From Flavobacteriales bacterium (GTDB lineage: Bacteria > Bacteroidota > Bacteroidia > Flavobacteriales_E > Vicingaceae), in NCBI GenBank assembly GCA_002401955.1, contig NVUQ01000003.1:49991-113990 (forward strand): a stretch of 64,000 nt of DNA. The letters are read 5' to 3'. The translations under genes were made by a program, and so were the position numbers. Every line of letters begins with the position of its first letter. The stretch's first letter is position 1. Under the pieces are notes generated by a model. The model made no database searches and was not told the DNA's origin. It saw only the letters and a program-made list of their open reading frames with translations. Below, piece by piece: positions 1,791 through 64,000 of this stretch.

Positions 1791-1908
1791 GTTATGCCAA
1801 TTTAATTTCAAAACACCCAACAATGTTTTTTGTATAATGCCGATAGATAATCAAAGCCTGAGAATAAGTGTAACGAAATTATCGGGCATTTTGATTATAA
1901 ATCGGTAT
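1791..1908 (+). repeat. MITE-like dispersed repeat, copy A
   Basis: This non-coding element of about 115 bp recurs at 13611 (same strand) and at 62301 and 63838 (opposite strand), with a half copy at 3027. Its two ends are imperfect inverted repeats: CCAATTTAATTTCAAAAC at one end pairs with the complement of the other end (CCGATTTGTAATCAAAAT). An inner stem pairs AATGCCGATA with TATCGGGCATT. There is no ORF inside. It fills most of the 370-bp gap between the thioesterase and the next gene; the rest of the gap (1909-2133) shows nothing I can identify. Confidence 0.75.
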
Positions 1909-3026: not shown

Positions 3027-3072
3027 GTTATCCCAATTTAATTTCAAAACACACAACAATGATGTTTGTTTG
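3027..3072 (+). repeat. half copy of the MITE-like repeat in a 500-bp gene-free gap
   Basis: The left end of the repeat family (GTTATCCCAATTTAATTTC, then AAAACACACAACAATG) is present, but the remainder is missing or diverged beyond recognition. The gap 2800-3303 holds nothing coding. It does contain two small hairpins just downstream: GTTTGTTT paired with AAACAAAC near 3064-3088, and ATTGCTT paired with AAGCAAT near 3173-3196. Their function, if any, is unknown. Confidence 0.55.
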
Positions 3073-5058: not shown

Positions 5059-5119
5059 AAATAAAAGAATTTCTTGAAACGATCATCCCCGAAGCAGAGC
5101 TTTCGAGGTATTTCGATCG
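5059..5119 (+). repeat. 61-bp repeat identical to the last 61 bases of the window
   Basis: This segment matches 63940-64000 base for base. It carries a hairpin whose outer stem is GAAACGATC paired with GATCGTTTC (5076-5084 with 5115-5123). An inner part, CCCCGAAGCAGAGC, faces TTCGAGG. A shorter relative (CCCCGAAGCAGAGCTTCGAG) lies at 5225-5244 and a degenerate one near 13573. The gap 4941-5331 therefore holds repeat DNA and no gene. Confidence 0.75.
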
Positions 5120-5331
5120 TTTCATTTTAACCTAAAGGTCAAAATCCAAAATTCACTTATTTTGCCTCACCCAAAACTTTTACAAAGTTTTGACCTCTCC
5201 GAAAGGAAAGGTGTGTTTGGAAACCCCGAAGCAGAGCTTCGAGGAATTCTCTTGATTAACAATCCTTAACATTTAAAATCAAGCACTTAACTAGTTTATT
5301 CTTAAATTTGGTAAAACAAAAACTTAAATCT

Positions 5332-13459: not shown

Positions 13460-13610
13460 ATTCTTTTTTTGTTACTTCTAATGTCCAACGCTTCAAACTC
13501 ATTTTACTGCATCTGGATACCCGATTTCGCGGGTAAGGAGTAAGAGACAGAACTCTTAACTTAATAACATTAAAGCAGAGCCTTTCGAGGAATTCTTTTG
13601 AATTAAAAAT

Positions 13611-13728
13611 GTCATACCAATTTAATTTCAAAACACCCAACAATGGTTTTTGTATAATGCCGATAGAGATTCAAAGCCAGAGAATGAGAGTAACGAAATT
13701 ATAGGGCATTTTGATTACAAATCTGTGT
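13611..13728 (+). repeat. MITE-like dispersed repeat, copy B, in a 495-bp gene-free gap
   Basis: This copy matches copy A (CCAATTTAATTTCAAAAC at the left end, AATGCCGATAGA inside, GGGCATTTTGATTAC near the right end). The right terminus has diverged and runs straight into another dispersed element beginning TGTCATTCCGATTGGATCCC, with a CCCGAT/ATCGGG hairpin. The gap 13460-13954 also has a degenerate relative of the 61-bp hairpin repeat near 13573, and the relic described at 13848. There is no credible gene in it. Confidence 0.7.
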
Positions 13729-13847
13729 CATTCCGATTGGATCCCGATTTTTTCTATCGGGAGGAACAGAGGAATCTGTTGAAAATAGTATTCGACAAAC
13801 GAGGCACTAGAGCGTCAGCATGAATTATTAATTTTAAAGAATTCTTC

Positions 13848-29728: not shown

Positions 29729-30913
29729 ATGTCAGATAATTCAACAAATATTAGTTTAGGGGACAAATCAAAAGAATTGAGCTGTTGTATTATTATTCCA
29801 ACATACAACAATTGTAAAACTCTTAAAAGAGTAATTGATGGTGTTATTCAACATGGTTTAGACTACCCTATTATTATTGTTAATGATGGTAGTACAGATG
29901 ATACGCCTAAAATTCTTGAAGATTATCAATCTAAAGTAACGTTAATCACAAACCCTGTTAATCAAGGTAAAGGAATGTCATTAAGAAAAGCTTTTGCTAA
30001 GGCTTGGGAAATGGGTTTTGAAAATGCTATTACCATTGATTCTGACGGTCAACATTACCCTGAAGATATTCATTTATTTATTGATGCTGCAAAGCAAAAT
30101 CCTGGGGCACTCATAATGGGGGCTAGAAATATGGAACAAGAAGGTGTTCCGAGTAAAAGTTCTTTTGGCAATAAGTTTTCTAACTTTTGGTTTAAAGTAG
30201 AAACTGGCATTACACTTCCTGATACTCAAACTGGGTTTAGATTGTACCCTTTAGAGCCTATTTCAGAAATAAAACTCTTTACCAATAAGTTTGAAACCGA
30301 AATTGAAGTAATCGTAAAATTAGCATGGAAAAAAGTACAATTTATTCCAATTAAAATTGATGTACTCTATGATGCTGATGAAAGAGTGACTCATTTTAGA
30401 CCTTTTAAGGATTTTACTAGAATAAGTATCTTAAATACTTACTTGGTAACACTAACGCTCTTATGGCATCTACCTATTCGCGTTATCAACGTAATTAAAA
30501 AAGAAGCCATTAAAAGCGATGAAAGCAATTTAAAGAAATCACTATCTATAGGTTTTGGATTTTTTATGGGAATATTTCCTATTTGGGGTTTCCAATTGTT
30601 GGTAGGAATTCCTTTAGCTTTTTTCTTTAAATTAAATAAAGTGCTTTTTGTAGCTGCTGCGAACATTAGCATTCCTCCTTTTATTCCGTTTGTAATCTTT
30701 TTTAGCTACTTATTTGGAAAACCTTTTGTAAATAACGAGACTCAAATTACCTCATTTAGTTCTTTAACTAAGGAATCGATACATTTAAATTTTGTTCAAT
30801 ATTTTATTGGAGCTATTCTATTAGCAATAGTTGCAGGAATAGTTACTACAGGTTTTTCGCTACTTATGTTTAAAATGTTTAGAAAGGGGGCTCCCGTAAA
30901 TCACGGAGATTAA
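29729..30913 (+). CDS. family 2 glycosyltransferase fused to DUF2062
   Basis: Starting at ATG 29729 (394 residues), the N-terminal GT2 domain shows IIPTYNNCKTLKRVI, VNDGSTDDT, TIDSDGQHYPEDI (metal-binding DxD) and DTQTGFRLYPLEPI, the dolichol-phosphate-mannose-synthase-like pattern. After about residue 265 follows a DUF2062 membrane domain (IGFGFFMGIFPIWGFQLLVGIPLAFFF). It probably transfers a sugar to a lipid carrier or the pigment lipid at the inner membrane. Its last codons and stop lie within the first unit of the tandem repeat array, so the C-terminus APVNHGD is repeat-encoded. Confidence 0.88.
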   Translation: MSDNSTNISLGDKSKELSCCIIIPTYNNCKTLKRVIDGVIQHGLDYPIIIVNDGSTDDTPKILEDYQSKVTLITNPVNQGKGMSLRKAFAKAWEMGFENAITIDSDGQHYPEDIHLFIDAAKQNPGALIMGARNMEQEGVPSKSSFGNKFSNFWFKVETGITLPDTQTGFRLYPLEPISEIKLFTNKFETEIEVIVKLAWKKVQFIPIKIDVLYDADERVTHFRPFKDFTRISILNTYLVTLTLLWHLPIRVINVIKKEAIKSDESNLKKSLSIGFGFFMGIFPIWGFQLLVGIPLAFFFKLNKVLFVAAANISIPPFIPFVIFFSYLFGKPFVNNETQITSFSSLTKESIHLNFVQYFIGAILLAIVAGIVTTGFSLLMFKMFRKGAPVNHGD

Positions 30914-32252
30914 CGCAGAGATAATTAGTGAAATAACGGTAGAGGTATAAAACAAAAAAATCAGCGATCATCAGCGGGACAAAAAAAACACAAAGAAATG
31001 TCTCCCGCAGATCACGGAGATTAACGCAGAAAAAATTTGTAAAATAACGGTAGAGGTATAAAAAAAATCAGCGAATATCAGCGGGACAAAAATATACAAA
31101 GAAATGTCTCCCGCAGATCACGCGGATTAACGCAGAAAAAATTAGTAAAACAACTATAGATATAAAAAACAAAAAAATTAACGAACATCAGCGGTATCAG
31201 CGGGAAAAGAAATACAATGAAATGTCTCCCGTAAATCACGGAGATTAACGCAGAGAAAATTAATGAAATAACTGTAGAAGCATAAAAAAATCAGCGAACA
31301 TCAGCGGTATCAGCGGGACAAAAAAATACAATGAAATGTCTCCCGCAGATCACGGAGATTAACGCAGAAAAAATTAGTAAAATAGATATATAAAACAAAA
31401 AAAATCTGCGAACATCAGCGATATCAACGGGACAAAAAAAGATAATGAAATGCCTCCCGCAGATCACGGAGATAAACGCAGAGAAAATTAATGAAATAAC
31501 TGTAGAGATATAAAACAAAACAGCGAACATCAGCGGTATCAGCGGGACAAAAATATACAATGAAATGTCTCCCGCAGATCACGGAGATTAACGCAGAGAA
31601 AATTAATGAAATAACTGTAGAGGTATAAAACAAAACAGCGAACATCAGCGGGACAAAAAATATACAAAGAAATGTCTCCCGTAAATCACGGAGATTAACG
31701 CAGAGAAAATTAATGAAATAACTATAGATATAAAAAACAAAAAAATTAACGAACATCAGCGGTATCAGCGGAAAAAAAATACAATGAAATGTCTCCCGCA
31801 GATTACGGAGATTAACGCAGAAAAAATTAATGAAATAACTATAGAGATATAAAACAAAAAAATCAGCGAACATCAGCGATATCAGCGGAAAAAAAAATAC
31901 AATGAAATGTCTCCCGCAGATTACGGAGATAAACGCAGAAAAAATTAATGAAATAACTATAGAGATATAAAACAAAAAAATCAACGAACATCAGCGGTAT
32001 CAACAGGACAAAAAAATACAATGAAATGTCTCCCGCAGATTACAGAGATAAACGCAGAAAAAATTAGTAAAACAACTATAGATATAAAAAACAAAAAAAT
32101 CAGCGAATATCAGCGATATCTGCGGGACAAAAAAAGATAATAAAATGTCTCCCGTAAATCACGGAGATTAACGCAGAAAAAATTAATGAAATAACTATAG
32201 AGATATAAAACAAAAAAATCAGCGAACATCAGCGATATCAGCGGGAAAAGAA
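30891..32252 (+). repeat. tandem array, 12 units of about 106-119 bp
   Basis: Units start with CTCCCGCAGATCACGGAGAT (or CTCCCGTAAATCACGG) at 30891, 31002, 31108, 31227, 31340, 31454, 31569, 31676, 31793, 31911, 32030 and 32149. Each continues through TTAACGCAGA, an A/T-rich middle (TAACTATAGAGATATAAAAC) and ATCAGCGAACATCAGCGGTATCAGCGGG. Lengths vary by small indels and by presence of the extra GGTATCAGC piece. The minus-strand ORFs listed here are artefacts of the repeat. The array starts inside the glycosyltransferase gene and stops 11 bp before the next gene, so it fills the whole gap within the pigment cluster. Confidence 0.95.
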
Positions 32253-32262
32253 AAAAGAAATA

Positions 32263-33939
32263 ATGATAAAAAAGATATTAAAATTCTTACTAAAACTAAC
32301 AGCCATTCTACTGGTTGTATTCGTTATCTATTTTATTTGGGAGATTAAAATGCCTACACCAACAATAGATAAAAATTTATCTATAGAAAATTATGAACGA
32401 ATTGAAGTAGCCCCAAATCATTATACTGTAAATGATTGTTGGTTAAAAAAGAACAAATATGGCATTTGGGAAATGTACCTAGAGGGAGAACCTTATGAAC
32501 GAGGTTTAATCTATGGAGTATTAGCAAAAGAACTCATGGAAAAGCAAGAGATCTATTTTGTAAATCAGATTGACGAAATTGTTCCTAATCAGTTTTTTCA
32601 ATTCTTCTTAAAAATGTTTGTAGCTTGGTTTAATCGTGATATTAACGAGTATATTCCTGAAGAAAATTTAACAGAGATTTATGGTGTTTCACAATCATTT
32701 TCTGATAAGTACGATTATATTGGTCCTAAATACTATCGTATTTTAAACTACCATGCCGCTCATGACATAGGTCATGCCCTTAAGGACTTAAACATGGTTG
32801 GTTGTACTTCTTTTTCTGTGAACAATGAATTATCGGCTGACAGCTCTTTATTGATTGCTAGAAACTTTGATTTTTACATGGGAGATGAATTTGCCAAAGA
32901 TAAACTCATTCTTTTTGTAAAACCTTCTAATGGTTATGCTTTCTCCTCCTACTCATGGGCTGGCTTAACGGGAGTTGTTTCTGGTATGAATGAAAAAGGC
33001 TTAACTGTAACGTTAAATGCATCAAAATCGGACCTTCCTTTTACGGCTAAGGATCCAATATCTTTATTGGCTAGAGAAATATTACAATATGCTCAAAATA
33101 TTGAAGAAGCAATTGCTATAGCAGAAAAAAGAGAAACATTTGTTTCCGAATCTTTAATGATAGGTTCATCTATAGATAACAAGACCATCCTTATTGAAAA
33201 ATCTCCACAAAAAATGGATGTTTATGATTCTGAGAATAATCAAGTAACTTGTGCTAATCATTACCAAAGTGATACCTTCTTAAATGACTCCATAAACATC
33301 AAGAACATTAAAAATTCTGATTCTAAACATCGCTATGATAGAACCAATGAATTATTAAATAAAAACTACCCTATTGACTATACCAACGCCATTAGCATTT
33401 TAAGAAATCAAAAAGGAGTTAAAGATGAGTTTATTGGTTATGGTAATCCAAAAGCAATCAATCAGTTAATAGCACATCATGGAATTATCTTTAAACCACA
33501 TCAACGTCAGTTTTGGATATCTACTCCACCCTATCAATTAGGCAATTTTATTTGTTATGATCTAAATAAAGTATTTAATGGAACAAAGCAATTTTCTGAT
33601 ATTGATTCTTTAAAAGTTGCTTCTGATTCTTTCATTCAAAGCAATGACTATAAAAAATATGAGGTTTACAAAAACATTAAACAACGCATACAGAAGTTTG
33701 TTATGATAGGAAAACCTTTTTCGATTTCTGAAAAAGAGGAGTTAAAGTTTATTAATACAAACCAAAAAAGCTATATCACCTATATGGTTTTGGGAGATTA
33801 TCATGCAGAAAATAAGAACTACCCAAAAGCGATTGATTACTATATCAAATCATTAGAACAGAGTGTTGCTTCTATTGAAGAAGAAAATATAATTAAAGAG
33901 AAAATAGTATCTTGTCAGCTTGAGTTAAAAGAAAAATAG
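32263..33939 (+). CDS. C45-like Ntn hydrolase (acyl-CoA:6-APA acyltransferase-like) with membrane anchor
   Basis: This 558-residue protein has an N-terminal membrane anchor (about 5-27). A linalool/penicillin acyltransferase-like Ntn-hydrolase domain follows, with the likely nucleophile Cys181 in MVGCTSFSVNN. The family blocks LLIARNFDFYMGDEFAKDK, YAFSSYSWAGLTGVVSGMNEKGLTVTLNA and GYGNPKAINQLIAHHGII come next. The end (about 500-558) is a TPR-like helical pair (YHAENKNYPKAIDYYIKSL). C45-type proteins recur in flexirubin clusters. An acyl or amide transfer on the pigment is a reasonable guess, but no reaction is established from sequence. Confidence 0.8.
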   Translation: MIKKILKFLLKLTAILLVVFVIYFIWEIKMPTPTIDKNLSIENYERIEVAPNHYTVNDCWLKKNKYGIWEMYLEGEPYERGLIYGVLAKELMEKQEIYFVNQIDEIVPNQFFQFFLKMFVAWFNRDINEYIPEENLTEIYGVSQSFSDKYDYIGPKYYRILNYHAAHDIGHALKDLNMVGCTSFSVNNELSADSSLLIARNFDFYMGDEFAKDKLILFVKPSNGYAFSSYSWAGLTGVVSGMNEKGLTVTLNASKSDLPFTAKDPISLLAREILQYAQNIEEAIAIAEKRETFVSESLMIGSSIDNKTILIEKSPQKMDVYDSENNQVTCANHYQSDTFLNDSINIKNIKNSDSKHRYDRTNELLNKNYPIDYTNAISILRNQKGVKDEFIGYGNPKAINQLIAHHGIIFKPHQRQFWISTPPYQLGNFICYDLNKVFNGTKQFSDIDSLKVASDSFIQSNDYKKYEVYKNIKQRIQKFVMIGKPFSISEKEELKFINTNQKSYITYMVLGDYHAENKNYPKAIDYYIKSLEQSVASIEEENIIKEKIVSCQLELKEK

Positions 33940-62132: not shown

Positions 62133-62300
62133 GGTTTTTGTTTGAAAGTGAACTGCAATACTACCTCCAAGCAATGGTATTTACAGCATCCGTTTTACGA
62201 GGAGCAATTTGGCTTTGTGGAGTGAAGAAATGATGAGTGTTGAATTTTGAATGAGACAAATAAAATTCAATATTAGAATATTGATTTATTGAGTAGTATT

Positions 62301-62416
62301 ATACCGATTTGTAATCAAAATGCCCGATAATTTCATTACTCTCATTCTCTGGCTTTGATTATCTATCGGCATTATACAAAAACCATTGTTGGGTGTTGTG
62401 AAATTAAATTGGTATT
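62301..62416 (-). repeat. MITE-like dispersed repeat, copy C
   Basis: This is a full-length copy in reverse orientation: TACCGATTTGTAATCAAAA at the left, CTATCGGCATTATACAAAAA inside, AATTAAATTGGTA at the right. It lies upstream of the DUF4143 ATPase gene, and copy D follows that gene in the same orientation. The remainder of the gap 62133-62527 holds the ATPase promoter region and nothing else I can name. Confidence 0.8.
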
Positions 62417-62447
62417 AGATATTAGCTTATTAATTTTTTGTTTCTTT

Positions 62448-63721: not shown

Positions 63722-63837
63722 CTCGAAAAATTCGAGCGTTAATTTTTAAAAGGTATATTAACCATATTACACTTCTACAAACTGAATAATATAAGCTGTA
63801 CTTCTACCACCACCAATTGATTTAAAAATTCCTATTT

Positions 63838-63940
63838 CATACCGATTTGTAATCAAAATGCCCTATAATTTCGTTACTCTCATTCTCTGGCTTTGATTAT
63901 CTATCGGCATTATACAAAAACCTTTGTTGGGTGTTTTGAA
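63838..63940 (-). repeat. MITE-like dispersed repeat, copy D
   Basis: This copy has the same orientation as copy C and nearly the same sequence through GTTGGGTGTTTTGAAA. There the right terminus is replaced by the start of the 61-bp hairpin repeat. The compound structure suggests one repeat inserted at or recombined with the other. The gap 63722-63837 shows nothing else. Confidence 0.75.
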
Positions 63941-64000
63941 AATAAAAGAATTTCTTGAAACGATCATCCCCGAAGCAGAGCTTTCGAGGTATTTCGATCG
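63940..64000 (+). repeat. 61-bp hairpin repeat, second copy, cut by the window end
   Basis: Identical to 5059-5119 over the whole visible length. The 3' arm of the GAAACGATC/GATCGTTTC stem is cut at its end by the window boundary. It directly abuts MITE-like copy D. Confidence 0.8.

Follow-up and report, generated by a model that had tools for sequence, protein, structure and literature searches.

A 113-bp MITE family in a Flavobacteriales genome, with a related insertion sequence as its probable mobiliser in trans

RUP of Streptococcus pneumoniae is an AT-rich repeat of 107 bp with about 100 copies, whose ends resemble those of a resident insertion sequence (IS) and for which mobilisation in trans is thought likely (PMC3049150). 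In the Bacteroidota, the MITEs of Porphyromonas gingivalis (BrickBuilt, 239, 464/PgRS and 700) have unrelated interiors and ends (GAGAC.../ACGTCA...) in common with resident IS5 family partners, and occur in 10–20 copies with variable target-site duplications (PMC4596501). MITECca01 of Cardinium, also from the Bacteroidota, is about 240 bp long and belongs to a single lineage with its parental IS, an IS982 element, in the genome (PMC9769881), and the proposed movers of cyanobacterial Nezha are ISNpu3-like elements (PMC3049150). A 3-bp TNA duplication is found in the IS1031 subgroup of IS5 (PMC12016507). Here we describe a repeat from a 64-kb stretch of DNA (the window; 64,000 bp) of a Flavobacteriales bacterium, which we read as a MITE, that is, a 113-bp non-autonomous DNA transposon mobilised in trans by the transposase of a related IS, with a probability of about 0.93.

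The element and its copies in the window

Aligning the copies together with their flanks placed the limits of the element at TACC...GGTA, giving a repeat of 113 bp (TACCAATTTAATTTCAAAACACCC...GGGCATTTTGATTACAAATCGGTA) with typically a TNA on each side. The four near-complete copies and one half copy of the original prediction were found at their positions and in both orientations, and are 91–95% alike over 106–126 bp. Copy 1 (1795..1907, + strand, 113 bp; G000:C110:51777-51902 in the DNA search) is flanked by TTA (1792-1794) and TAA (1908-1910), while copy 2 (13615..13727, + strand, 113 bp) has a target duplication of TCA (13612-13614 / 13728-13730) and copy 3 (62302..62414, − strand, 113 bp) one of TTA (62299-62301 / 62415-62417). 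Copy 4 (63840 to about 63941, − strand) has an intact right end with TCA at 63837-63839, its left end having been lost to another dispersed repeat, and the degenerate half copy (3031..3064, + strand) retains the left end only (TCCCAATTTAATTTCAAAACACACAACAATG). The left and right termini agree at 17/25 positions, in line with the roughly 17 matches first counted by eye, and form imperfect terminal inverted repeats. The length is 113 bp in 64/72 copies and ranges from 108 to 115 bp, in which a transposase would not fit. Genes neighbouring the window copies are ordinary, coding for a peptidase M28, a thioesterase, a DUF1842 protein, a sensor kinase with a response regulator, several products that bear a secretion-system sorting tail and an AAA_14 ATPase; as first noted, no transposase is found beside the copies in the 64-kb window.

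Very short derivatives of about 35–50 bp were also observed (L067, L071, L072, L073 and L075), in which the left end is retained together with a right end like GGTA, in several cases with identical TTA on both sides. Two of them (L071 and L075) share one structure at separate sites, and such derivatives perhaps arose by deletion between GGT repeats or are themselves mobile.

Other repeats share this DNA. The one that truncates copy 4 is a second dispersed repeat with the palindrome CCCCGAAGCAGAGCTTTCGAGG, present in the window at 5059-5260, 13572-13600 and 63942-64000, and it begins at about 63942, cutting the left end of copy 4 at GTTTTGAAA|ATAAAAGAATTTC. Because the same junction, with the left end cut alike, occurs in a congener (L110), the composite of the two repeats would be older than the species split or move as a unit. 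Another repeat (TAACTTAATTTTTAACAAAAAATGTCACTTCGAGTG) abuts either kind of MITE end at exactly one position (L004, L009, L051, L069 and L078), as if one element targets the other. At 30829-32331 the window also holds an extended series of diverged tandem repeats, whose period is about 106–119 bp.

Dispersal through the genome and the inner fold

The genome holding the window (G000) is a draft of 150 contigs, 4.19 Mb in total and 83% complete. A 25-bp core of the element occurs in it 92 times at ≤3 mismatches and its reversed control not once, and the MITE ends occur 176 times at ≤1 mismatch, again with no control matches. In the DNA search 40 of the 177 candidates were scored and all 40 matched. 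Our reading covered 77 distinct full copies and another 21 that are partial; divergence from the consensus has a mean of 3.9% (median 2.65%). The 3-bp flanks are identical in 50/77 full copies, and every one of these is a TNA (TAA 29, TTA 15, TCA 4 and TGA 2), compared with 26.7 ± 3.6 expected and a maximum of 41 in 20,000 shuffles of the right flanks. The flanking TNA is a 3-bp target-site duplication, a feature that the original prediction had proposed looking for. In a further 14 copies the two flanks are unequal, one being TTA and the other TAA.

Beyond the TNA triplet the flanks differ from copy to copy, so the copies are not the product of segmental duplication; with 92 cores and unrelated flanks, neither of the outcomes named beforehand as speaking against the idea, few further copies or spread through segmental duplication only, was seen. 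Group II intron-like tails do contain a few copies, placed alike in each tail, as expected if the repeat had been dispersed by intron retromobility or segmental duplication, but the large majority have unrelated flanks and a TNA of their own, and we consider dispersal in this way the least probable of the explanations weighed here. The copies concerned (L033 and L082, on contigs C3 and C1) have the same insertion point within group II intron-like remnants (GGTGTGA|GAGGCGAACTCCGC) and probably spread with the intron. Rfam reported no group II intron at tails of this type and no empty copy was seen, and the tails were for these reasons set aside as a paralogous empty site for the target duplication.

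With the element and one TNA removed, a long ORF is interrupted at 0/62 sites versus 365/560 control positions in the same flanks, which upholds the claim that copies are always intergenic. The long ORFs closest to a copy form a tandem pair at 30 sites, a convergent pair at 13 and a divergent pair at 10, and the next ORF lies at a median distance of about 100–200 bp; where the ORFs are in tandem, 19 copies run with the gene direction and 11 against it. No MITE copies were found on plasmids or viral contigs. Several contigs of the window's genome stop in or beside MITE-like repeats.

The inner hairpin described at the outset exists as part of a larger pairing, in which residues 46–65 (CCGATAGATAATCAAAGCC), which repeat the right end (CCGATTTGTAATCAAAATGCCC) internally in inverted form, fold together with that end. 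In copy 1 the corresponding motif TGCCGATAGATAATCAAAGCC (1839..1859, + strand) is the inverted copy of the right terminus from which the hairpin was drawn. Its conservation is incomplete, since C89A breaks the G48-C89 pair of the inner stem in 29/77 copies. The search for compensatory changes gave 1–2 cells altered on both sides of a pair versus 55–135 broken (1 versus 135 for the best fold), and pairing is not maintained by such changes. It could be argued that the repeat is a structured RNA or cis-regulatory element whose fold is held by selection, given that it folds better than shuffled sequence (z = −3.7 as DNA, −2.4 as RNA) and that the copies are always intergenic and close to the next ORF. 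However, in addition to the broken stem and the scarcity of double-sided changes, the window copies have no Rfam match, and the copies follow neither an orientation rule (19 same, 11 opposite at tandem sites) nor a single gene arrangement. The fold itself is accounted for by the terminus being repeated in inverted copies. With no covariation and no Rfam match a structured-RNA role is unsupported, and we regard selection on the fold as very improbable. Separately, Rfam places a DUF805b RNA at 2816-2855 (− strand) of the window with 46 bits (gathering threshold 35.6), just upstream of the DUF1842 gene at 2134-2799, and a second near-threshold match to this RNA is found in L033.

The alternative of a REP-like RNA- or protein-binding element, raised in the original prediction, fares no better, as there is neither covariation nor an Rfam match nor a REP/RAYT arrangement. 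In its specific form the repeat would be a REP/BIME-like palindromic element dispersed by a RAYT, a Y1 single-strand transposase. The genome has five Y1_Tnp matches and one RAYT (C52:1664-2200) lies near a lone MITE left end, but the palindrome on either side of that RAYT is a different one (ACCACAAGGCAGAGCCTTGCGGTAGC) and the MITE pair is absent from all other RAYT loci. Y1 enzymes leave no target duplication, whereas TNA is duplicated at MITE copies, and the length and long terminal inverted repeats of the element are unlike REP. We therefore give dispersal by RAYT very little credence. Four to five RAYT-like Y1 transposases are present in the genome, on contigs C115, C90, C52 and C37 (L104, L105, L106 and L107); as partners of the MITE they were rejected for having their own palindromes and the wrong target duplication. 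The REP-like families of this genome are sequences other than the MITE.

The putative parental insertion sequence

The original prediction had proposed a search for a transposase with matching ends, and this recovered two partial IS ends in the genome but no complete element. One contig (C19) breaks off about 95 bp into an element whose edge reads TAA|TACCAATTATGAATCAAAACACCCG and which contains the gene tail ...NKLSVNQILSITHNKYFLEAYNGCFDS-stop; this partial element directly adjoins a MITE copy. On a second contig (C40), which also breaks off after about 95 bp, the edge reads TAA|TACCAATTCTGAAACAAAACGCCTG and the gene start MGKRVIIGIKES follows. Because their termini are alike (21/25 match), C19 and C40 probably carry opposite ends of a single insertion sequence that lost its interior to collapse during assembly. 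The MITE ends match these termini at 16–19/25 positions; for comparison, TNA-TACC sites of the window outside the copies match the MITE end mostly at 6–13/25. To this can be added genome G101, where the MITE left terminus (23/25) is found on two contigs, each of which breaks about 140 bp further in. The sequence up to the break codes for ...LWLHNFVRNNLSVEIVKSITHNSFFLNDFYSVF-stop, with the stop codon within the terminus, and the same terminus in genome G002 has the gene tail ...VRSITHNHFFLNDFYSVF-stop. The gene tails of C19, G101 and G002 are homologous (putative parental gene tail sequences KNKLSVNQILSITHNKYFLEAYNGCFDS / EDLENVKLWLHNFVRNNLSVEIVKSITHNSFFLNDFYSVF), and we infer that the protein of the putative IS is the transposase acting on the MITE.

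No complete copy of this putative parental IS was found, the contigs stopping about 95–140 bp inside, and the 62 contigs of G101 read whole or in part hold nothing of its gene beyond two gene tails. Plasmids, phages and viral contigs did not contain it either, and the looser terminus pattern has a single match in viral contigs, a lone end.

Known transposase families were considered as the partner. The MITE could belong more narrowly to an IS of the IS5 family (IS1031-type), as TNA duplication also occurs in IS1031 members (PMC12016507) and the P. gingivalis MITEs have IS5 ends (PMC4596501). Against this, the genome is without PF13586 or PF13359 and its three PF01609 transposases are without MITE ends, as are all PF01609 genes examined in 16 other MITE- or TIR-bearing genomes; PF13586 rises above the cut-off in only 1/23 other genomes, and the MITE ends are not of the GA type. 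A family member may nonetheless have been lost from the draft assembly, and we rate an IS5-type parent as unlikely, though less so than the other rival readings. Transposases of PF01609, PF13586 and PF13359 were rejected as partner where found, here and elsewhere, for lacking MITE ends. An IS982 N-terminus adjoins the terminus in G002/NORP67, but Bacteroidota IS982 elements end in ACCCGTAGTGCATTAT or close to it, with no match to the MITE ends; IS982 was rejected as partner for having other ends and the fragment in G002 is a mere neighbour of the terminus.

Mobilisation in trans of a non-autonomous element, as first proposed, is supported by the imperfect terminal inverted repeats, the TNA duplication, the many copies at unrelated sites, their absence from ORFs and a partial IS whose ends match. 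Counting against it are the match of only 17/25 between the MITE termini, the 14 copies with unequal TTA and TAA flanks and the break of the assembly inside the putative IS; no sign of current activity and no empty site in a sister strain was seen. In the mechanism we propose, a transposase supplied by the IS would recognise both MITE ends (TACCRATTTNNNNTCAAAA) in trans and excise or copy the MITE, which would then be inserted at TNA via a 3-bp staggered cut that leaves a TNA on both sides. The target duplication suggests that the cutting would be done by a DDE-type transposase. Intergenic copies would persist, and insertions into genes would be lost. The ends of the element and the start and stop of the gene are now at hand for retrieving the parental IS.

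Relatives in other genomes and comparison with known elements

A congener has one MITE copy of 92% identity (L110), and the genus and family are otherwise almost without the element, with no strict-type MITE ends in 45 family members. Among 395 sampled genomes of the class, a partial-length match turned up in five others. The core GTATAATGCCGATAGA recurs in genome G433 and, slightly altered, in a Cyclobacteriaceae genome (L140). A looser terminus pattern has, among the matches listed (GTDB contigs), representatives in several species of Labilibaculum, Ancylomarina, other Bacteroidales, Flavobacteriaceae and Cyclobacteriaceae, and cyanobacterial and Synergistaceae matches are also among those listed; some of the loose-pattern matches are probably due to chance. 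Many of these loci are MITEs of 60–230 bp, mostly 139–167 bp, with other interiors, and the TNA is identical on both sides in 36/40 loci of other Bacteroidota that have TNA-flanked end pairs. One terminus and one target rule are thus common to MITEs of unrelated interiors in several Bacteroidota groups. It is tempting to see here a class-wide Bacteroidota superfamily, with TACCRATTTNNNNTCAAAA ends, TNA duplication and interiors of 60–230 bp that vary by lineage, whose transposases would form a family of IS1031/Harbinger-like target preference, missed by the profiles tried because its IS would be rare, short-lived or assembled away, but we hold this idea only tentatively and think it rather doubtful.

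The 113-bp element is a MITE, being short and non-coding, with terminal inverted repeats, a target-site duplication and many unrelated sites, and it is a new family of a known kind; its putative parental partner is recovered in part. The Bacteroidota, where few MITE families have been described, thus gain one of well-defined limits, target duplication and copy number, and such MITE-like repeats break assemblies. RUP is close to it in size, copy number and AT-richness and in ends that resemble an IS, yet its proposed partner is IS630-Spn1 and it belongs to another phylum; the two are likened by description, not by sequence. Nezha is likewise a prokaryotic MITE, and a similar TTATACCAATT end occurs at some loci of Nostoc and Xenococcus, which does not imply identity with Nezha. 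The IS1031 subgroup has the same 3-bp TNA duplication but ends in GA..., and the search for an IS5-type transposase with ends like those of the MITE found none. Within the Bacteroidota, MITECca01 is comparable as a MITE of a single lineage and differs in its greater length and IS982 partner, whose ends do not match, while the P. gingivalis MITEs are alike in pairing unrelated interiors with ends common to a resident IS and differ in the ends themselves, the IS5 family partners, the lower copy number and the variable target duplication.
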